Source: Lachnospiraceae bacterium JLR.KK008
GTDB taxonomy: Bacteria > Bacillota > Clostridia > Lachnospirales > Lachnospiraceae
Length of the DNA stretch: 64,000 bases
Assembly: GCA_037015955.1 (NCBI GenBank)
Contig: CP143548.1
Location: 1,482,001-1,546,000 of the forward strand
Reading direction: 5' to 3'
Under the pieces are notes generated by a model. It saw only the letters and a list, made by a program, of their open reading frames with translations. It was not told the DNA's origin and did no database searches. The position numbers and the translations under genes are program-made. Of the stretch, positions 24,063 through 64,000 are shown one piece after another (the first letter of the stretch is position 1; the number at the start of each line of letters is the position of its first letter).

Positions 24063-24647
24063 TCAGGCGTTCTTCTCCATTGCTTTCTGTATTGCTTCCC
24101 CTATTCCGTAATAGTCGCACCATACCGGCTCCAGCTTCATAAGTGATGGGAGCGTTATTGTTTTCTGAACAGGCTTCATCTCGTCCAGTACCGAAGTTGG
24201 AAGCACATAGAACTCCCAAAGGTCCAGGTCCAAAGGAGACTCGTCTTTTTCCATAGCCTTGTATATGCAGAAGATATATACATCTAATTTCCGTTGTAGA
24301 GGAGTGTCCAGTTTTGGCTTTCCGGAGCTGTCCGGCATCCTGGAAGGAGCTATCTGAAAAGAAACGTGATCCGGATGCTCCGTATCCCATGACTGGACGT
24401 ATGCAGCTGATTGGACCTCCAGCTTGTAACCGTCCGGAGATAGCAGACTGTATTGTTTCCATGCCGATCTGGATGTATCTGTATCTAAGTGAGCCGCCCC
24501 GATGGACGATGCCACGATGAACTCTGCCATCACAGAACGGTTGCGGCTGTCGGCAAGGTCTGAGTAAGCCCACCTCCAGTAATCGTTCATGGTGATGCTT
24601 ATTGGTTTGCCGCCTACCAGGAATGGCTCGTTTCCGATGTATGTCAA
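24063..24647 (-). CDS. PD-(D/E)XK-like protein A, unknown function
   Basis: A 194-residue protein lying between repressor and recombinase, starting at TTG 24647 eight bases after AAAGGAGG. It is a clear paralogue of protein B (35208-35948): shared blocks are WAYSD, RSVMAEFIV, LEVQSAAYVQSW, SFQIAPSRMPD, LDVYIF.IY and LWEFYVLPTSVL. The order Glu, ExK-like, Gln suggests a restriction-endonuclease-like fold, but here the usual lysine is glutamine (EVQ), so activity may be altered or lost. Operon position implies expression in the lysogen. A role in immunity or exclusion is inference; an integration accessory role is the alternative. Confidence 0.6.
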   Translation of the reverse strand: MTYIGNEPFLVGGKPISITMNDYWRWAYSDLADSRNRSVMAEFIVASSIGAAHLDTDTSRSAWKQYSLLSPDGYKLEVQSAAYVQSWDTEHPDHVSFQIAPSRMPDSSGKPKLDTPLQRKLDVYIFCIYKAMEKDESPLDLDLWEFYVLPTSVLDEMKPVQKTITLPSLMKLEPVWCDYYGIGEAIQKAMEKNA

Positions 24648-35207: not shown

Positions 35208-35948
35208 TCATTGAGGACGGTCTTTTTTGCTGTCGGAAGAAATGTCCTCGCAAGCACTCAGTATTGCCGGACAGAGTTCATTGAATGACAGCTCCGGAGA
35301 CCCCAAAGTCTCCAGTTTGGTGAGAGAGATTGTTTTCTGCTCACCGCACTTTTCATTAAGGACAGATGTTTTGATGACATAGAATTTCCAAAGGCTCATG
35401 TCGAAAATGTTCTGTTCTTTTGTAGTCGCTGTATAGATAGCGAAAACGTATATGTCGGAATTGCGCTGGCGTTCTGCATCCGGACGGTAATCGCCGATTT
35501 CGTCTGGCACTTTTGCCGGTGCTATGCTGAAAGAAATTCTAGGCGTAGTTCCAGGATGCGGTTCCCATGCCTGGACGTAGGCAGCCGATTTCACTTCTAT
35601 GCGGCATGGCAGAAATTCAGTAGAGTTGGAAACTTCCAATTTTTCGGGGGGGGGGGTAAACGCTTGTTCGATATTTGGTCCTACGAGGTCGTAAGGCTCA
35701 AAGTTGGAACGGATGTCGGTGTTGGTGTAAATTCCCCCTAGTTCCAGGGCAGCTTTTACAACGAACTCCGCAAGCACCCCTCTGTTTGTGTTGCGGAGCA
35801 TATCGGAATAAGCCCACTGCCAAAACTCGGCAATGTGGAACGGCAGGACTTTACCGCCATCCACAAGATGCTCCAGCCCGGTCAGCTTCCTCTGATAGGA
35901 GCCGGAGTAGTTTGCGGTCCTTAAAGGACCAGGGTATGTATTGTTCAT
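35208..35948 (-). CDS. PD-(D/E)XK-like protein B, reversed cargo gene
   Basis: A 246-residue paralogue of protein A, opposite to surrounding genes. Core blocks are FWQWAYSDML, NRGVLAEFVV, IEVKSAAYVQAW, SFSIAPAKVPD, SDIYVFAIY and LWKFYVIKTSVL. E in AEF, ExK in EVK and the following Gln fit a restriction-endonuclease-like nuclease fold; in B the lysine is kept. It is longer than A by an N-terminal extension and an insert before ExK encoded partly by eleven C on the sense strand (TPPPEK). Start 35948 follows AAAGGAGG. Own promoter and flanking hairpins mark a moron. A defence role is inferred. Confidence 0.65.
   Translation of the reverse strand: MNNTYPGPLRTANYSGSYQRKLTGLEHLVDGGKVLPFHIAEFWQWAYSDMLRNTNRGVLAEFVVKAALELGGIYTNTDIRSNFEPYDLVGPNIEQAFTPPPEKLEVSNSTEFLPCRIEVKSAAYVQAWEPHPGTTPRISFSIAPAKVPDEIGDYRPDAERQRNSDIYVFAIYTATTKEQNIFDMSLWKFYVIKTSVLNEKCGEQKTISLTKLETLGSPELSFNELCPAILSACEDISSDSKKDRPQ
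35646..35656 (-). repeat. Homopolymer of 11 G (C on the coding strand) inside gene B
   Basis: Eleven G in a row encode the end of Thr and Pro-Pro-Pro in protein B, upstream of the ExK motif. A gain or loss of one base would truncate the protein before its likely active site. Confidence 0.9.
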
Positions 35949-36004: not shown

Positions 36005-36652
36005 ATGAAAAGAATAGAAGTGTGTAAGATGCGTGTCGGTGATCTGAAACACAATTTTGGAAATCCCAGGAAGATTTCAAAGAAGAAAGCTGAGGAGCTT
36101 GAACGGTCGATGGATTTGTTCGGTGACTTCGGCGTTTTTGTTGTTGACGAACACAATAATGTGATTGCTGGAAACCAGAGGTCCATCATACTTGCGAGGC
36201 GTGATCCGGACATCGAAGTCGATGTTAAGAAACTGATAGGATATTCGGAGGCAGAACTTCGCTCAATCAACATCATGGATAACACCCATGCCGGCGAATG
36301 GGATTTGGAACTGTTGGCTGACTGGACTGCGGACCTCAACCTGGATTTGGGAATTGACCTCAACAATGAAAATCCGGAAGAACGGAAGATTGAGGACATG
36401 GAACTGATCCGGTACGAGAAGTACAACTATGTGATGATAGTCTGTAAGAGTGAGATTGACTATAACGATTTGATAAGGAAACTCGGTATCGAAGGCAGGA
36501 AGGTTGCTATCACCAAAAAGCGGAAGATAAAGGCAAGGGCAATCTGGTACGATCAGATGAAGGCACAGATAGTCGAGAAACCGCCGGAAGCAAACCAACC
36601 TTCCGAAGATGATGAAAAAGATGGTGAAAATGGAAAGGAGGAGCAGGAATGA
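36005..36652 (+). CDS. ParB/Srx-fold domain protein
   Basis: A 215-residue protein with an N-terminal ParB-like domain: KMRVGDLKHNFGNPRKISKK (substrate loop with NPR), then VIAGNQRSIILAR, the GxxR box of ParB CTPase/kinase-like folds (about residues 58-70), and VKKLIGYSEAELRSINIMDN. The C-terminal half (about 120-215) is unrelated, ending in an acidic Lys/Glu tail. Chromosome-type partition HTH is absent. Its stop overlaps the next start (ATGA), so it is coupled to the PIG-L, WbqC and glycosyltransferase genes. Such domains occur in phage DNA modification loci; a role here is inferred. Confidence 0.75.
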   Translation: MKRIEVCKMRVGDLKHNFGNPRKISKKKAEELERSMDLFGDFGVFVVDEHNNVIAGNQRSIILARRDPDIEVDVKKLIGYSEAELRSINIMDNTHAGEWDLELLADWTADLNLDLGIDLNNENPEERKIEDMELIRYEKYNYVMIVCKSEIDYNDLIRKLGIEGRKVAITKKRKIKARAIWYDQMKAQIVEKPPEANQPSEDDEKDGENGKEEQE

Positions 36653-37317
36653 GGTATTTGATAGTTGCGGCACATCCGGATGATGAAGTCCTGGGAGCCG
36701 GTGCGATGATGCACAAGGCAGCTGGAAACGGCGATGAAGTCTATGTCTGCCTGCTCAGTCATTGGAGTCCTACCAGGGATGATAACCTGGAGGACGGCAT
36801 TGCATCCAGCCACGCCATCCTGGGAGTGAAGAAGTCCTATGTCGGAGATTTCGGGTGCATGAGGTTCAAGGATGAAGACCATCATGCCATTGTCCGGTTC
36901 ATCGAGGCGGCGATTAGAGACTGCCAGCCGGATGTTCTGATTACTCACCACCCGGCGGATGTTCATGTGGATCATGGCATCACATCGGAGTGCTGCATGG
37001 AAGCATCGAAGCTCCCTATGAGGCAGATTGCGAATATCCAGCCAATCCGGAAGATTATGTATATGGAGGTTCCGTCCTCTACGGACTGGAATGTAAGTAC
37101 GGCCAATGGAGTTTTTGTTCCGAATGTGTTTGTCGGCGTAAGCGAGGAAGATTTGGCTGAGAAGGTTAAGGCGGTAGGTGTCTATAAGGATGTCATCCGG
37201 AAAGCACCTCACCCACGTTCCAGGGAAGTCATCAATGCTATGGCGGTGCTGAGAGGAAGCCAGTCTGGTTTGATGGCGGCGGAGTCCTTCCAGCTGGTGT
37301 TTGGATTGGGGGTGTAG
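36649..37317 (+). CDS. PIG-L family deacetylase
   Basis: A 222-residue zinc hydrolase. The motif AAHPDDEVLGAGAMM (about 7-21) gives the metal ligands His and Asp and the catalytic Asp; THHPADVHVDHGITSE (about 99-114) gives the third ligand region. Family members remove N-acetyl from GlcNAc-type sugars linked to lipids, thiols or antibiotics. In this operon the likely substrate is a sugar carried on DNA, a nucleotide or a virion glycan; none is proven. It overlaps the ParB-like gene and precedes the WbqC gene by 3 bp. Confidence 0.88.
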   Translation: MRYLIVAAHPDDEVLGAGAMMHKAAGNGDEVYVCLLSHWSPTRDDNLEDGIASSHAILGVKKSYVGDFGCMRFKDEDHHAIVRFIEAAIRDCQPDVLITHHPADVHVDHGITSECCMEASKLPMRQIANIQPIRKIMYMEVPSSTDWNVSTANGVFVPNVFVGVSEEDLAEKVKAVGVYKDVIRKAPHPRSREVINAMAVLRGSQSGLMAAESFQLVFGLGV

Positions 37318-37320
37318 GGC

Positions 37321-38025
37321 ATGATGGTTACAATTCATCAGCCATGCTATCTGCCATACCTGGGAGTGTTTCACAAGATATGGAAGGCTGATGCCTTCGT
37401 ATTCCTGGATGATGCACAGTATAGCAACGGCTATGTGTTTGAATGGAACCGGATCAAGACACCGCAAGGCGAGTGCCGGCTGAAAGTTCCACTGCATAAG
37501 GAGTTCGGGCAGACACTTCGGGAGGTAGTTCCAAAGGACGGTCTCGGCTGGCAGCATAAGCATATAAAGACAGTAGAGATGAATTACAAGAAGGCTCCGT
37601 ATTTCCCGGAGCTTTTTCCTGCTTATGAAGGAATTGTCAGTGAGTGCTATGATAATTTGGCACAGCTGAACATTGCACTGATGAATTTCTTCCTACTGTG
37701 GTTCGGATGGCATGATAAGAAAGTCTATTACGCATCGGATTGGAAGCTGGAAAGCAGATCAGAAGCCAGGGTGATTGAGATATGCAAACGCCTTGGAGCC
37801 GATGCCTACCTGTCTGGGACCGGCGGAAGGAATTACCAGGAGGAAGAACACTTCAAGGAGGCTGGCATCAAGCTGGTGTACCAGGAATGGGAGCCGCTGG
37901 AGTACCGGCAGTTGTGGGGAGAGTTCCGACCGTATATGTCAATCCTGGACTACGCAATGAATGAAGGGCATGACATAGGCAGCCACTTCAGAAGGATGGA
38001 GGAGGTGATGGCAGATGGCAGATGA
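37321..38025 (+). CDS. WbqC family protein
   Basis: A 234-residue member of the WbqC-like family. The starting block IHQPCYLPYLGVFHKIWKAD and DDAQYSNGYVFEWNRIK (about 3-45) are diagnostic, with a later CKRLGADAYLSGTGGRNYQ. WbqC proteins occur in O-antigen and other nucleotide-sugar operons, probably transferring an acyl or amino acyl group onto an amino sugar; the chemistry is not settled. After a deacetylase exposing an amine, such a step would make sense. It overlaps the glycosyltransferase gene by 11 bp. Confidence 0.85.
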   Translation: MMVTIHQPCYLPYLGVFHKIWKADAFVFLDDAQYSNGYVFEWNRIKTPQGECRLKVPLHKEFGQTLREVVPKDGLGWQHKHIKTVEMNYKKAPYFPELFPAYEGIVSECYDNLAQLNIALMNFFLLWFGWHDKKVYYASDWKLESRSEARVIEICKRLGADAYLSGTGGRNYQEEEHFKEAGIKLVYQEWEPLEYRQLWGEFRPYMSILDYAMNEGHDIGSHFRRMEEVMADGR

Positions 38026-38734
38026 AGAACTGACATTAGGCATATACGTCCAAAGCTATCACCGTCACAATAAGATACTCACCCAGGATTTGCTGGAACG
38101 GTGTACCTATGTGGTGAGGGCGAGCGAAGCGGATTTGTACCGCAAGGCAGGAGTGGAGAATGTATGGGCTGCTCCGGACGAGGAGGTCAACAATGCCATC
38201 CGGACGTACTGGTGGATAGTGGATCATGCACCGGAAGACATCGTATTCATTGCAGACGATGATATTGAGGATGTGATGTACCGCATGGATGACACCACCC
38301 GGCTGAATAAGGATAAGGAGACCATCATGGCGGAGATTGAACGCATCGCGCAGATGATGGTTGATCTGAATGTAGGATATGCCTGCATAGATGCTACCGG
38401 CATCCCTTATGGGTATGACGGTGAATTTGCATTTAAGGGAACGTCCGGCTCTTTGAAATGGGTGTATAAGAAAGTGCTGAAGGCTCGCCCGGATGAAAAC
38501 TGCAAGTACAATTATGACCTGGACCTGGTATTGCAGGAGTTGCTGCACAATCGCATCATTCTGAAGCCCCGGTACATCATCTGCAAAGATTACCAGGATG
38601 TCAATGCCGGTGGAGACAGCTCCAAACTACGGCAGGATCAGATAGACAGCATCGAGAACATGAAGCGGAAGTGGGGAAAGTATTTCAAGTACAATTACAA
38701 GAATAACAAGCCTCAGATAAATGTTCCCCGGTAA
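38015..38734 (+). CDS. GT-A-like glycosyltransferase (phage DNA-modification type resemblance)
   Basis: A 239-residue protein with a GT-A-like fold: LGIYVQSYHRHNKILT at the start, VVRASEADLYRKAGV, then IVFIADDDIEDVMY with the DDD metal motif (about 88-101), and a later YNYDLDLVLQELLH. The layout of short SYHR start, VV..SE...Y and hydrophobic-DDDI resembles TAGT/GREB1-like glycosyltransferases proposed to modify phage bases; this is family recognition by eye. It is last in the coupled four-gene cassette and is followed by a repeated phage promoter. Confidence 0.65.
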   Translation: MADEELTLGIYVQSYHRHNKILTQDLLERCTYVVRASEADLYRKAGVENVWAAPDEEVNNAIRTYWWIVDHAPEDIVFIADDDIEDVMYRMDDTTRLNKDKETIMAEIERIAQMMVDLNVGYACIDATGIPYGYDGEFAFKGTSGSLKWVYKKVLKARPDENCKYNYDLDLVLQELLHNRIILKPRYIICKDYQDVNAGGDSSKLRQDQIDSIENMKRKWGKYFKYNYKNNKPQINVPR

Positions 38735-38821: not shown

Positions 38822-39484
38822 ATGGCTTACGATTTAGTAACTAAGAACGGTCATAATATGTATGACATGGCATCAATGATGCAGAAGGCGATCCGGAGGA
38901 ACAATCCGAACCTGGCAGGATATGCCGCCTATGAACTGTTCGGCAATTTCCACACCTATATGTGGAAGCGGCTGGTGGTGGTATCGGCGGAGGACTGCTA
39001 CGGCATTATGACGAAGGAAGTAATCGCTCTGAAGCTGGCAGATGATTTCTGCAACAAAGGCAGGAAGGGATATGATAAGGACCCTCTGTTTGCGGCGAAG
39101 GCGATCACGCTGTTATGCCAGGCGAGAAAGAACCGGGATGCCTGCTATGTAGCCTGTAATTTCATGTTGCCGGACCGTATCCTGGATGAAAGCGAGATTG
39201 AACATATCGACATCACGAAATGTCACCTGGGAGTGGAAGGGATACCGGATTGGGTGTTCGATGTTCATACCCTCACCGGGAAAAGGAATGGCAAGACAGA
39301 CCTTGATATGACAATCGAGGAGCAGGCGGCACTGGAACCGAAGCAGATGTCTCTGTTTGATGACTGCTCATGGGAGAACTACTACACATGGGCGAGGAGC
39401 CAGGGCAAGGTAGGGAATAAGGAGTGGGCGGACTTCCAGCAGTTCAAGAAGGGAAGGAAGCTTGAACCGGACTACAACGCATGA
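38822..39484 (+). CDS. Stand-alone RarA/MgsA C-terminal domain protein
   Basis: A 220-residue protein that aligns by eye with the C-terminal part of RarA/WRNIP1 AAA+ proteins: MYDMASMMQKAIRRNNPNLA for the SAxxKSIRGSDPDAA block, RLVVVSAEDCYG for RLVRxASEDIG, and AITLLCQARKNRDACYVA for the final YLAxAPKSNAVY helix. No Walker motifs exist, so the ATPase half is missing. RarA acts at stalled replication forks and its C-terminal region mediates tetramerisation and SSB contact. The C-terminal ~70 residues (MTIEEQAALEPKQMSLFDD) are extra. It may cap or redirect host RarA. Confidence 0.6.
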   Translation: MAYDLVTKNGHNMYDMASMMQKAIRRNNPNLAGYAAYELFGNFHTYMWKRLVVVSAEDCYGIMTKEVIALKLADDFCNKGRKGYDKDPLFAAKAITLLCQARKNRDACYVACNFMLPDRILDESEIEHIDITKCHLGVEGIPDWVFDVHTLTGKRNGKTDLDMTIEEQAALEPKQMSLFDDCSWENYYTWARSQGKVGNKEWADFQQFKKGRKLEPDYNA

Positions 39485-40375: not shown

Positions 40376-42142
40376 GTGGCACAGAAGGACTTAAAGCCGG
40401 TACGAACCAAAGAGGAAGCAAAGGCGAGGGGCAGGAATGGCGGCATTAAATCCGGAGAAGTCCGAAGGGCAAAAAAATCCATGCGTGAAACTGCAAAAGC
40501 TCTCATGTCAATGGAGGTGGTTGGAGACAACAACAAGAAGAACCTGGAAGCCTTCGGTATCCAAAAGGGAGATCAGAATTATCAAACGGCGGTCGTTGTC
40601 CGGCTCATGCAGAAGGCTTTAGTCGAAGGTGACACATCCGCCATCCGGCTGATTGGAGAATTGACCGGAGATTTGAATAGATTTGGACTCATACCGGAAG
40701 AAGAAAGCGAGATTGTTGAGCTTGCATACCCGACAATCAATCTGCCGAACAACGGAAGGGATAAGAAGGATGCCTTCCAGCTTGCACCCCAGGCTGGACC
40801 ACAGACGCAGTTCATGGCATCGTCAGCGGACATCATCATATATGGTGGCGCCGCCGGTGGAGGAAAGACATACGCATTGCTGTTGGAGGCTCTCCGGCAC
40901 AAAGATGTTAAGAGTTTTGGCGCTGTTATTTTCCGTCACAATTACAATCAGATAACGGCAGAGGGTGGCTTATGGGATGCCAGTCAGAAGATATTCAATC
41001 AAGTTCCGGATGCACACTCCAGGAAGTCACCGAAGTTGCACTGGAGGTTTGACGGCGGTGCGAAGCTGAGTTTCGCCCACATCGAAAGAGATGAAGACCT
41101 CAAATCATGGCAAGGTACAGAGATTGCCTATATCGGCTTCGATGAATTGACACACTTCACGAAGCACCAGTTTCTGTATATGCTATCCCGAAACAGAACT
41201 ACTTGCGGCATACGACCGTATGTGAGAGCAACCTGCAACCCGGACTCAGACTCATGGGTGGCAGAATTTATCAGTTGGTGGATAGACCAGGAAACCGGAT
41301 ATGCAATACCGGAGCGATCCGGACAGATACGATGGATGGTTGTGCTGAATGACATCATCTATTGGGGAGATACCCCGGAGGAGTTGGCGAAAAAGTATGA
41401 AGTCAATGTGGAGGACTGCAAAAGTGTTACGTTCATTGCAAGCCGCCTGGAAGACAATAAGATACTGATGGAAAGCGACCCTGGATATTTGGCGAACTTG
41501 AAGGCGATGACGGAAGTTGACATGGAACGGTTGCTGAGAGGTAACTGGAAGATTAAGGCAGCTGCCGGTTCCTTCTTCAAACGAAGCCAGGTAGGAGAAA
41601 TCCTTACAGAAGTACCGAAGGATTTGGTTGCTGTATGCCGAGGCTGGGATTTGGCTGCCACAGATAAGGATGAAGATGACGAAGCTGCATTTACTGCCGG
41701 TGTCCTCATGGGCAGAAGGGAGAATGGCAGATTTGTCATCATTGACGTTATCAATCGCCAGTTGAAAGCTGGTGATGTACGAAGCACCGTATTGGTGACA
41801 GCTAAGATGGATCATGCAAAGTATGCTTGGTGCAGGCAAAGATTGCCGCAGGACCCAGGGCAGGCTGGAAAAGACCAGAAGGCTTCCTACATGGAGATGC
41901 TTGCCGGATTTGATGTTCACATGATACCGGAGTCTGGTGATAAAGCAACCAGGGCGGAGCCTATGGCGGCACAATGGCAGCATGGAATGTTCGATTTGGT
42001 TGCCGGCGAATGGAATGAAGCATATCTCAATCAGTTGGAGTCATTCCCGGACAGCAAGTGGAAAGATATGGTGGATGCCAGCAGTTCAGCCTTCAACGAG
42101 ATAACGCTTGGCATGGGCTTCAACATTGACAATTTGCTATAA
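40376..42142 (+). CDS. terL: Terminase large subunit with small-subunit-like N-terminus
   Basis: A 588-residue packaging motor starting at GTG 40376. The first ~120 residues (ARGRNGGIKSGEVRRAKKSM; QKGDQNYQTAVVVRLMQKAL) resemble the separate small terminase-like protein of many Firmicute phages. The ATPase follows with Walker A GGAAGGGKT (about 160-168) and Walker B YIGFDELTHF (about 252), then the nuclease domain with GWDLAATD (about 420), FVIIDVI and a terminal WKDMVDASSSAFNEI. No other small subunit gene is seen nearby, which supports a fusion. It lies 20 bp before the portal gene. Confidence 0.88.
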   Translation: MAQKDLKPVRTKEEAKARGRNGGIKSGEVRRAKKSMRETAKALMSMEVVGDNNKKNLEAFGIQKGDQNYQTAVVVRLMQKALVEGDTSAIRLIGELTGDLNRFGLIPEEESEIVELAYPTINLPNNGRDKKDAFQLAPQAGPQTQFMASSADIIIYGGAAGGGKTYALLLEALRHKDVKSFGAVIFRHNYNQITAEGGLWDASQKIFNQVPDAHSRKSPKLHWRFDGGAKLSFAHIERDEDLKSWQGTEIAYIGFDELTHFTKHQFLYMLSRNRTTCGIRPYVRATCNPDSDSWVAEFISWWIDQETGYAIPERSGQIRWMVVLNDIIYWGDTPEELAKKYEVNVEDCKSVTFIASRLEDNKILMESDPGYLANLKAMTEVDMERLLRGNWKIKAAAGSFFKRSQVGEILTEVPKDLVAVCRGWDLAATDKDEDDEAAFTAGVLMGRRENGRFVIIDVINRQLKAGDVRSTVLVTAKMDHAKYAWCRQRLPQDPGQAGKDQKASYMEMLAGFDVHMIPESGDKATRAEPMAAQWQHGMFDLVAGEWNEAYLNQLESFPDSKWKDMVDASSSAFNEITLGMGFNIDNLL

Positions 42143-42162: not shown

Positions 42163-44169
42163 ATGAATGAACAGCAGAAAGCTATGCTGGATCGGCAGTT
42201 GAAACTGCAAAGGGGAGCCGCAATCATCGAAGGCACCCAGGAAAAGTTCCGGCAGGATGGTTATAGCAACCTGCTGAACAAATACGGAACCGCACAGGAC
42301 AGCTCCACATCGTACCAGTACAACCAGGAGATTATCACGAATGACATGGAACTCATACGGCTGTATGAAGGAAACGGTCTGTTCACGAAGATTATTGATC
42401 GCCCATCAGAGGAAGCAGTAAAGCATGGATTTGACATAGATTTCGGTGATGAAGATGTTACTGAATATGTTGATGACAGAATGGATGACCTGGATTTCGA
42501 GTCGAAGTTTGCTACGGCTGAGAAGTGGGCGAGGCTCTACGGCGGCTCCATAATTGTAATGCTTGTTGATGACGGCAGAGGATTGGAGGAACCTCTCGAT
42601 TGGAAGAATGTCCGGACAATCGAAGAACTCCGGGTGTTTGAAAGGGCGATAGTCCAGCCGGACTACACCTCGATGTATCATTTCCATTTCCTTGATACGA
42701 TTGACAGTGACCGTCCGTTCGCAGAACCGGAATATTACCAGGTGTTCAGCATCTATGGATACTTCATCGTACACCGAAGCAGATGCCTGGTATTCAGAAA
42801 CGGCAGACTTCCAGAGCAGACCACCAATGCAATCTATCGGTATTGGGGCATCCCGGAATATGTCAAGATTAAGCGAGCATTGAGGGAGTGCATCACTTCC
42901 CATGAAAACGGAACTAAGCTGCTTGAAAGGTGTGTGCAGGCAATCTACAAGATGAAGAACCTGGCGAATATGCTTGGTACGGATGAAGGTGAAGACAAGG
43001 TATTGCAGAGGCTCCAGGTCATTGATATGGCGAGGAGCATTTTGAACTCCATAGCCATTGACAGTGATGGTGAAGATTATGATTTCAAGACCTTCTCAAT
43101 GGCAGGAGTTAAGGATGTCCTAGACTCCACCTGCAATATGCTGTCAGCAGTAACAGAAATTCCGCAGACGATTTTGTTTGGGCGGTCTCCGGCAGGAATG
43201 AACGCCACCGGCGAGAATGACATGGAGAACTACTACAACATGGTGGAGAACATTCAGAAGCAGAACATGAAGAAGAACTCCAGGACAGTCATTGATTTGA
43301 TATTACGCCAAGGGAGGCTGGAAGGAAAGATACCGGAGGAGCCGAAGTACAAAGTCAAGTTTGCTGCCCTTTGGTCCTTGTCTGATACAGAAAAAGCCAA
43401 TGTCGATAAGACAAAGGCTGATACGGAGTATACGAAGGCTCAGACATCGCAGATTTACATGGATAGCAATGTCCTGGACCCTTCAGAAGTGAGGAAATCG
43501 CTGGCATCGGAAGGGGATTTTGAAATCGAGGAGGTTTTGTCAGAGGAAGAACTCAACCTTCCGGAAGATACGTTTGATGTTGGCGAAAAGGCAACGGTCG
43601 GAGAACCGATTGAAATTCTCGGACAGACCAATGATGAAGATGATGCCATTGAGATTGATATGCCTGGAAGCCAGTTAAGGACCGGCGAGAAGGTAGTCAT
43701 CAAAGATACCGAAGGAGATGCCGGAGGCGGTGCTGAAACAATCATCGTGGAAGGTGTTTCTGAAAATGGCGATGGAGCAGATTATCCGGCAGCCGCAGTT
43801 ATAATCATCAAAGACGGCAAGATTTTATGTGCTTCCAGGAGAAATAACGAAGGCGTGTGTGGACCCGGAGGTCATATAGAAGAAGGAGAAGAACCCGAAG
43901 ATACGGCGGTGAGGGAGGCGATGGAGGAGTTCAATATTGTTCCCCTCAACCTACAACCGTTAGGCGAATACAAAGGCGGCACTGGTTCATATCTGCCTTC
44001 TATGGTGTACTGGACGGATCAGTTCTCCGGAACTCCCGAAGCAGATGGTGATGAAATGCTCAATGCGAGGTGGATGACCTTGGAGGAACTGCAAAGCCAG
44101 CTTTTGTTTCCACCGTTCGAGGAAAGTCTCCGGATGCTTGCTGAAACAATGAGCGGCTACATACAGTAA
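42163..44169 (+). CDS. Portal protein fused to a C-terminal Nudix hydrolase domain
   Basis: A 668-residue protein. Residues ~1-430 are a DUF1073/Acb1-family type portal (NLLNKYGTAQDSS, IIDRPSEEAVKHGFD, LYGGSIIVMLVDDG, the PQTILFGRSPAGMNATGEND block). An acidic linker (~435-535) leads to a Nudix domain (~538-660) with the complete box GGHIEEGEEPEDTAVREAME plus EFNI, about residues 568-591; only the last Gly is Asn. The portal forms the dodecameric DNA gate of the capsid. The Nudix enzyme would therefore be present in about 12 copies per particle; its nucleotide substrate is unknown. Confidence 0.88.
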   Translation: MNEQQKAMLDRQLKLQRGAAIIEGTQEKFRQDGYSNLLNKYGTAQDSSTSYQYNQEIITNDMELIRLYEGNGLFTKIIDRPSEEAVKHGFDIDFGDEDVTEYVDDRMDDLDFESKFATAEKWARLYGGSIIVMLVDDGRGLEEPLDWKNVRTIEELRVFERAIVQPDYTSMYHFHFLDTIDSDRPFAEPEYYQVFSIYGYFIVHRSRCLVFRNGRLPEQTTNAIYRYWGIPEYVKIKRALRECITSHENGTKLLERCVQAIYKMKNLANMLGTDEGEDKVLQRLQVIDMARSILNSIAIDSDGEDYDFKTFSMAGVKDVLDSTCNMLSAVTEIPQTILFGRSPAGMNATGENDMENYYNMVENIQKQNMKKNSRTVIDLILRQGRLEGKIPEEPKYKVKFAALWSLSDTEKANVDKTKADTEYTKAQTSQIYMDSNVLDPSEVRKSLASEGDFEIEEVLSEEELNLPEDTFDVGEKATVGEPIEILGQTNDEDDAIEIDMPGSQLRTGEKVVIKDTEGDAGGGAETIIVEGVSENGDGADYPAAAVIIIKDGKILCASRRNNEGVCGPGGHIEEGEEPEDTAVREAMEEFNIVPLNLQPLGEYKGGTGSYLPSMVYWTDQFSGTPEADGDEMLNARWMTLEELQSQLLFPPFEESLRMLAETMSGYIQ

Positions 44170-63768: not shown

Positions 63769-64000
63769 ATGGCAAATTACGATCAGTTTGCAGCGGCAGT
63801 AAAGGAGATTTCCGGGGGAAAGAATGTCGTCCTGCTGGATGACCTCGGCATCCCTTCTGTGTATGTACCCATCAATAAGCTGAAGAACAGCGAACTTGTG
63901 TCCGGATTGAGTGAGAACATTCATCCGGCGTTCAGCGTTGCGGTCAACGGCGCACAGGTAGAGAAGGATTGCTTCTACTACTCTAAGTACCAGAATGTAA
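63769..64000 (+). CDS. Fibre-region protein, N-terminal part (cut by window end)
   Basis: The first 77 codons of a gene behind TAAGGAGG (ATG 63769). The visible start (MANYDQFAAAVKEISGGKNV, then LLDDLGIPSVYVPINKLKN) resembles the N-terminus of larger phage tail or receptor-binding proteins of clostridial myophages, but too little is present for a firm call. Confidence 0.6.
   Translation, partial: MANYDQFAAAVKEISGGKNVVLLDDLGIPSVYVPINKLKNSELVSGLSENIHPAFSVAVNGAQVEKDCFYYSKYQNV

Follow-up and report, generated by a model that had tools for sequence, protein, structure and literature searches.

A prophage-borne operon proposed to decorate phage DNA with an edited sugar in Lachnospiraceae bacterium JLR.KK008

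What is a prophage likely to do with sugar-processing genes placed directly ahead of its packaging genes, and to which molecule would the sugar be attached? The question is raised by a cassette in Lachnospiraceae bacterium JLR.KK008, the 3.19-Mb genome of which is a single contig (CP143548.1). The window, i.e. the 64,000-nucleotide stretch analyzed here, covers genome positions 1482001-1546000. The cassette encodes a ParB-like protein, a PIG-L family de-N-acetylase, a WbqC family protein, a glycosyltransferase of the Pfam TAGT family and a protein resembling the C-terminal domain of MgsA/RarA (RarA-C-like below). It is interpreted as a prophage-borne sugar-decoration operon which most likely acts on phage DNA, a reading given a probability of about 0.57. 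An earlier note on the same DNA had proposed a multistep system that adds and edits an amino sugar, leaving the acceptor between DNA and a glycan; the multistep scheme and the recurrence of the genes as a set are retained here, and the acceptor is weighed further below.

Proteins of the cassette

The genes of the cassette are as follows.

36005-36652, plus strand: ParB/Srx-like protein, 215 amino acids; core component
36649-37317, plus strand: PIG-L family de-N-acetylase, 222 amino acids; ATGA overlap with the ParB-like gene
37321-38025, plus strand: WbqC family protein, 234 amino acids; 3-bp gap after the PIG-L gene
38015-38734, plus strand: GT-A glycosyltransferase, Pfam TAGT, 239 amino acids; 11-bp overlap with the WbqC gene; core component
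38822-39484, plus strand: MgsA/RarA C-terminal-domain-like protein, 220 amino acids; 87 bases after the glycosyltransferase gene; core component

The first four open reading frames (ORFs) lie where the earlier note had placed them, with the overlaps and the gap that it had described, and from this spacing alone they appear to form a single translational unit. Scanning the cassette for promoters and terminators returned sites no more frequently than in shuffled sequences. The fifth gene had been overlooked in that note, as had a divergent gene on the minus strand (35208-35948).

The glycosyltransferase matched Pfam TAGT at 31.3 bits (curated cut-off 27.5) and PHROG 842, a beta-glucosyl-HMC-alpha-glucosyltransferase (HMC, hydroxymethylcytosine), at 1e-9. 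Residues 81-83 are DDD, which we take to be the metal-binding acidic motif of GT-A enzymes; they were invariant in 14 of 14 sequences, the alignment comprising 13 of the 14 glycosyltransferase stretches and the window sequence. The AlphaFold2 model (predicted local distance difference test, pLDDT, 81.5) matched TAGT proteins and a beta-glucosyl-HMC-alpha-glucosyltransferase among viral folds, and the likeness to phage base glycosyltransferases noticed earlier is thus seen by Pfam, PHROG and fold. Its top PDB fold was AvpGT (E 3.7e-6), a protein also solved with nucleoside; a sequence search of solved structures gave no match. The name TAGT is said to originate with Iyer et al. in 2013. In the accessible passages of PMC13390438, TAGT is described as the likely source of the second glucose on the DNA of T6-like phages.

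The ParB-like protein had no Pfam match at E values up to 1. It was placed in the ParB/Srx superfamily by ParB-type profiles, including PHROG 620 (ParB-like, 2e-18), PHROGs 723 and 8071 and others; PHROG 498 (4e-19), annotated as a DNA methyltransferase, was matched in its N-terminal part (profile positions 34-163 of 633). A remote homologue in locus L074 matches Pfam ParB_N. Mean column identity in an alignment of 6 sequences was 82%; locus L014 was left out of this alignment (two stops in the stretch) and of that for PIG-L. The protein is possibly a DNA-recognition or activating subunit.

The RarA-C-like protein of the window had no match in Pfam, PF12002 included, at E values up to 1. It is related (28% identity) to the product of L074:2543-3145, which matches Pfam MgsA_C (PF12002) at 1.5e-9 and 38.4 bits against a cut-off of 27. 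Of 397 genomes of the family, 10 had a match to the gene. In the five strongest, which include the JLR.KK008 genome and have E values of 5e-30 or lower, a TAGT gene adjoins it, four having WbqC and one an ATP-grasp ligase; in the five weak ones no TAGT gene lay within about 3.4 kb. No RarA-C-like match was obtained in either of the two congeneric genomes on the list.

PIG-L scored 64.3 bits against its Pfam model (cut-off 28.2). The motifs HPDD and DH, presumably those of the zinc site, were invariant in 6 of 6 sequences. The nearest NCBIfam model was BshB1 (E 1.6e-11; 44.4 bits, below the equivalog cut-off of 182.5). The enzyme is predicted to unmask the amine of a sugar.

WbqC scored 213.3 bits against Pfam PF08889 (cut-off 21.3), and its AlphaFold2 model had a pLDDT of 95.6. 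The three PDB matches of highest probability were 2b7l chain A (0.97, E 0.011), the bacillithiol ligase BshC (4wbd; 0.85, E 0.042) and 2b7l chain B (0.80). The 2b7l structure is CTP:glycerol-3-phosphate cytidylyltransferase, and both it and BshC are, we assume, HUP folds. Lower down, Fom1 cytidylyltransferase and tRNA synthetases appear amid metal-binding lipoproteins and other folds. No match to the NCBIfam BshC model was obtained, and a sequence search of solved structures gave seven matches, all with E 0.12 or worse. The WbqC alignment held 29 of 33 listed stretches plus the window sequence (L056 and L065 failed the trimming pattern). The protein is predicted to be a HUP-fold enzyme, probably using ATP, that acylates the freed amine. 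The host has a second WbqC homologue (33% identity) at genome positions 2709468-2710124 (L002), outside the prophage.

Profile searches of the four proteins named in the earlier note thus put PIG-L, WbqC and TAGT over their Pfam cut-offs and identified the ParB-like protein via PHROGs only.

Recurrence of the genes and exchange of modules

Viral contigs were scanned with WbqC, the glycosyltransferase, PIG-L and ParB, and genome contigs with the glycosyltransferase. The latter scan found two loci, both in Lachnospiraceae assemblies; among 391 genomes of the class, the glycosyltransferase was found in 1, the own genome. Loci were clustered at 95% ParB identity, giving 41 close clusters; the counts below use the 34 that extend 3.5 kb or more downstream. 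Locus records are often fragments, so that absence of a gene in them is weak evidence.

TAGT was present in 34/34 close clusters and the RarA-C-like gene in 33/34. PIG-L occurred in 19, WbqC in 18 and the two together in 17; because the loci were gathered with glycosyltransferase, WbqC, PIG-L and ParB seeds, these raw counts overstate how common PIG-L and WbqC are. An ATP-grasp ligase was found in 13 clusters, never alongside WbqC, and 3 clusters had neither. A LysA-like decarboxylase (8 clusters) and UDP-galactopyranose mutase (6) were all with ATP-grasp, and DegT and the 4,6-dehydratase were present in 8 clusters each. The enzymes of relatives include FnlA/PseB-like UDP-GlcNAc 4,6-dehydratase, DegT, UDP-galactopyranose mutase, LysA-like decarboxylase, ATP-grasp, FemAB and PglD, and TerL (terminase large subunit) homologues lie downstream of the cassette.

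The ParB-seeded scan taken alone added 53 loci (L096-L148); TAGT adjoined ParB in 39, and of the remaining 14, 2 are truncated. The PIG-L-seeded set (54 clusters) had ParB in 22, all with TAGT, TAGT in 23 altogether and WbqC in 34. The proposal of the earlier note depended on the genes being found together elsewhere, and they are: the set turns up again in dozens of separate loci, which rules out chance adjacency.

On a tree of 39 glycosyltransferases the tailoring label (WbqC or ATP-grasp) was clumped, with 6 changes, at least 2 of them forced by well-supported branches, and an independent-pairs test of the WbqC/ATP-grasp alternation was not significant. The ATP-grasp locus L011 is sister to six WbqC rows (support 100/96) within a group of 12 rows, the rest of which are all WbqC (91/91, not starred). 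It retains PIG-L, dehydratase and aminotransferase; its glycosyltransferase homologue scored 23.5 bits, under the TAGT cut-off. From the cluster counts, the tree and the placement of L011, core and tailoring genes are separable modules, and few of the swaps are firmly independent. That an ATP-grasp ligase takes the place of WbqC in some loci agrees with the predicted HUP assignment, since both enzymes would form an amide with ATP.

A second architecture (L067, L071, L073-L081 and L086, some cut off) has, in this order, ParB, TAGT, a S-adenosylmethionine (SAM)-methyltransferase-like protein, the RarA-C-like gene, PIG-L, WbqC, a TerS-like gene and TerL; the SAM-methyltransferase-like protein scored under Pfam cut-offs and the TerS-like gene was assigned by eye. 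The L047 contig has ParB and TAGT genes that overlap, accompanied by a dehydratase (L095); about 13 kb farther downstream come aminotransferases, genes resembling NeuB and NeuA, WbqC, PIG-L and TerL. NeuB was matched by Pfam in L072 and by profile in L047, where PHROGs gave no match for the protein. NeuB/NeuA-like nonulosonic-acid genes adjoin PIG-L and WbqC in L047, L049, L058, L072 and others, some beside TerL. Among other variants of the core, L134 has an extra family-2 glycosyltransferase and L131 an MT-A70 methylase upstream.

The resemblance to bacillithiol enzymes raises the alternative that the cassette makes a small bacillithiol-like thiol or conjugate. In bacillithiol and mycothiol synthesis (BshA-BshB-BshC and MshA-MshB-MshC), glycosyl transfer is followed by PIG-L deacetylation and by acylation of the amine by a HUP-fold ligase; a glycosyltransferase, a PIG-L protein nearest BshB1 and a fold match with BshC in second place would parallel BshA, BshB and BshC. 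BshA and MshA are GT4 enzymes, however, whereas the cassette glycosyltransferase is a GT-A protein of the TAGT family. The NCBIfam cut-offs were not reached, WbqC alternates with the ATP-grasp ligase, and L108, L109 and L131 have the TAGT core with neither PIG-L nor WbqC. A thiol product is accordingly considered highly improbable, the least probable of the readings weighed here.

Phage DNA, virion or host surface as candidate acceptor

Phage DNA is the best guess as acceptor, with a virion or host glycan as the main rival. DNA is favored because of the ParB-like and RarA-C-like partners, the TAGT family assignment and the restriction-resistant DNA of phages with analogous cassettes. Such cassettes were found in cultured phages DLP3, V-YDF132, KarBoss and DanielleIgnace, where PIG-L is combined with a second type of glycosyltransferase and ParB, TerL being next in the first three. 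These glycosyltransferases match GT4/GT1-group models rather than TAGT, and pass a Pfam cut-off in V-YDF132 alone. The occurrence of two glycosyltransferase types with the same partners argues for one system logic.

As the first profiles included sequences from the cultured phages, which made their E values self-supporting, the searches were repeated with those phages left out. V-YDF132 then had two WbqC matches and DanielleIgnace one. RarA-C-like ORFs were matched in KarBoss (2e-12), V-YDF132 (5e-7) and, weakly, DanielleIgnace (4e-5; annotated AAA-ATPase), E values being for six small loci; none was matched in DLP3. The ParB profile missed KarBoss, for which ParB rests on PHROG 26387 and on the ParB of DLP3. 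Dehydratase/epimerase and aminotransferase genes are present in DLP3 and KarBoss. A PIG-L relative is also encoded by Acinetobacter phage 3098, where the surrounding genes carry no annotation beyond hypothetical; that stretch gave no ParB, TAGT, WbqC or RarA-C-like profile match.

According to the accessible passages of the DLP3 paper (PMC7326821), in which that phage's own version of the cassette is tabulated gene by gene, DLP3 DNA resisted 15/15 restriction enzymes. The cassette of DLP5 (PIG-L, glycosyltransferase and ParB) is known solely from the table of relatives in the same paper, and DLP5 is listed as restriction-resistant in the passages of PMC8228603. Restriction tests of V-YDF132 were absent from the available passages of its paper, and those of two others mentioning the phage held none that was usable. 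No title or abstract describing the window cassette was found in a literature search, which left most subscription papers outside.

Several observations weigh against the reading, the first set of which concerns the hydroxyl group to which a sugar is usually joined. Neither the thymidylate synthase model (PF00303) nor the TET model (PF12851) found a hydroxylase in the whole host genome, nor did Pfam searches of 20 selected prophage ORFs; in 14 control genomes PF00303 had matches in 9, and TET had matches in 1, 0 and 1, never over its cut-off, which makes the absence of TET the weaker result. The earlier statement that no hydroxymethylase or pyrimidine hydroxylase is present in the window now extends, with that limit for TET, to the genome, and the usual hydroxyl acceptor appears to be missing. 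In 50 related records, a selection from those then fetched, TAGT was found in 30 at E values of 0.01 or less (19 of them passing the cut-off), TET in 0/50 and PF00303 in 2/50, neither of them TAGT-bearing. Five cultured phage records had neither PF00303 nor TET matches; a DLP3 gene annotated as thymidylate synthase does not match PF00303. The sole C5-cytosine methylase match of the genome, at 1854208, lies outside the prophage. DNA glycosylation is still compatible with the lack of a hydroxylase, given that Krischvirus phage SAP has glucosylated cytosines with no recognizable synthase or DNA glucosyltransferase, as stated in the passages seen of PMC13390438.

On the same side stand the best PDB folds of the glycosyltransferase, among which are a nucleoside glycosyltransferase and polysaccharide and teichoic-acid glycosyltransferases but no DNA enzyme, and the weakness of the HUP matches of WbqC (best E 0.011, none below 0.001, template-modeling scores to the query of 0.30 and 0.44), the match list of which also includes unrelated folds. 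The clumping on the tree and the paired test described above belong here, as does the finding that 10/18 more distant ParB clusters were without TAGT (8/18 with), so that ParB near TerL is by itself no sign of DNA modification. The DLP3 glycosyltransferase is of another type than TAGT; the passages of PMC7326821 state that the cause and type of the DLP3 modification were undetermined, and those of PMC8228603 list many S. maltophilia phages as restriction-resistant.

The chief alternative is that the edited amino sugar decorates a capsid or tail protein of the virion. It would fit the position of the cassette directly upstream of packaging and head genes, the PDB folds nearest the glycosyltransferase, and the dehydratase, aminotransferase and NeuB/NeuA sets near some PIG-L genes, which resemble pathways for protein or surface glycans. 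DLP3 and DLP5 DNA is restriction-resistant, however (PMC7326821 and PMC8228603, in the parts available), and TAGT groups with phage DNA glycosyltransferases. Moreover, the conserved partners are the ParB-like and RarA-C-like proteins rather than a structural protein, and a virion target is regarded as unlikely.

The surroundings of the cassette bear on the remaining alternatives. The prophage begins, at about 22-25 kb in the window, with an integrase (PHROG 95) and a repressor-like gene and continues through head and tail genes; its far end, at about genome position 1568.5 kb, was set by eye where the ORFs take on the appearance of ordinary host genes. Small genes separate the RarA-C-like gene from TerL, which is followed by the portal gene. 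The neighbors are as follows.

35208-35948, minus strand: divergent gene, no family match; optional neighbor, not part of the core
40376-42142, plus strand: terminase large subunit (TerL), PHROG 979, 4e-158
42163-44169: portal

A host surface polysaccharide might instead be altered during lysogeny, giving superinfection exclusion or seroconversion. Polysaccharide loci often contain members of the WbqC and PIG-L families, and the host's own WbqC homologue (33% identity) lies elsewhere in its genome. Modification of lipopolysaccharide was suggested for the DLP3 glycosyltransferase by its authors (passages of PMC7326821). Yet the eight proteins tested around the cassette included no flippase or polymerase, and the genes keep with the ParB-like gene, the RarA-C-like gene and TerL, not with the integrase and repressor. 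This explanation is judged quite improbable.

The divergent gene suggests a pair resembling a restriction-modification system, in which the cassette would mark phage DNA and the divergent product would be a nuclease sparing the marked DNA. The protein has an EVK pattern and is nuclease-like by eye only; the pattern is conserved and the gene adjoins the cassette, in the divergent position, in L003, L011, L014, L015 and L099. Yet it was present in just 3/34 close-clade clusters (filtered count), it had no match in Pfam, PHROG, PADLOC or NCBIfam, and a paralogue lies beside the repressor. Such a pair is thought very improbable. The paralogue, at 24063-24647 on the minus strand, has EVQ instead of EVK and belongs to no known family. 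PADLOC models matched 0 families among 7 proteins, i.e. no known anti-phage defense system.

Further features of the prophage were recorded. The portal has a NUDIX-like C-terminal domain at about residues 544-654 (PHROG 1198). A weak match to the antirestriction protein ArdA (19.1 bits, cut-off 27) lies among unknown genes at L018:17918-18622. A diversity-generating retroelement occupies L018:769-3918 (window position 63769 onward) and L094:284-1339 (genome positions 1564284-1565339), with a reverse transcriptase (PHROG 1423), two target proteins that vary and a template repeat near L018:2408-2497; in a 90-base comparison, template adenines accounted for 13/13 mismatches to the first target and 11/17 to the second.

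Proposed pathway and its place among known systems

If the operon acts on phage DNA as preferred here, the TAGT glycosyltransferase would put a sugar on its target, assisted by the ParB-like and RarA-C-like proteins, which may recruit it to DNA undergoing replication. Because the cassette has no precursor enzyme, the donor is probably drawn from the host, as UDP-GlcNAc or a similar UDP-N-acetyl amino sugar. PIG-L would then take off the N-acetyl group, probably after transfer, and WbqC would couple a carboxylic acid or an amino acid to the freed amine. This order of transfer, deacetylation and acylation is proposed by analogy with bacillithiol and mycothiol synthesis, with which the scheme shares a glycosyltransferase, PIG-L and, if the prediction for WbqC is right, a HUP ligase; the acceptor of those pathways is a small molecule and their glycosyltransferase is of another family, whereas a polymer is proposed here. 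A varied decoration may protect phage DNA against restriction enzymes and against nucleases recognizing one particular modification.

Like T-even DNA glucosylation, the system has a phage-encoded glycosyltransferase of the same Pfam family and of similar fold. It differs in that no hydroxymethylase was detected (thymidylate synthase model, whole genome), in its deacetylase and ligase for tailoring of the sugar, in its ParB-like and RarA-C-like partners and in belonging to a temperate phage. TAGT and ParB-type proteins reportedly occur together in phage operons of the TET/JBP-associated glycosyltransferase systems of Iyer et al. (2013); from these the cassette differs in that TET/JBP was not found in the own genome or in 50 records, the TET control being weak. 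The cassettes of DLP3, DLP5 (as given in the table of relatives), V-YDF132, KarBoss and DanielleIgnace share PIG-L, a glycosyltransferase and ParB with that of the window, and differ in having a GT4/GT1-group enzyme in place of TAGT.

A bolder and rather doubtful proposal is that the ParB-like, TAGT and RarA-C-like proteins are a portable core that glycosylates DNA without a known base hydroxylase, via a new acceptor route. Tailoring modules would be interchangeable (PIG-L with WbqC, decarboxylase with ATP-grasp, or a nonulosonic-acid-like pathway of the L047 type behind a ParB-TAGT pair), and the DNA would bear aminoacylated amino sugars or sialic-acid-like sugars. We know of no DNA carrying either kind of sugar.

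If the target is DNA, edited amino sugars would be added without the textbook hydroxylase, and the origin of the acceptor would become testable. The exchange of ligases and precursor enzymes on a fixed core resembles an arms race with modification-dependent nucleases. For the uncharacterized WbqC family this would supply a reaction open to test, the acylation of a sugar amine with use of ATP, and its relevance would extend well beyond phages.

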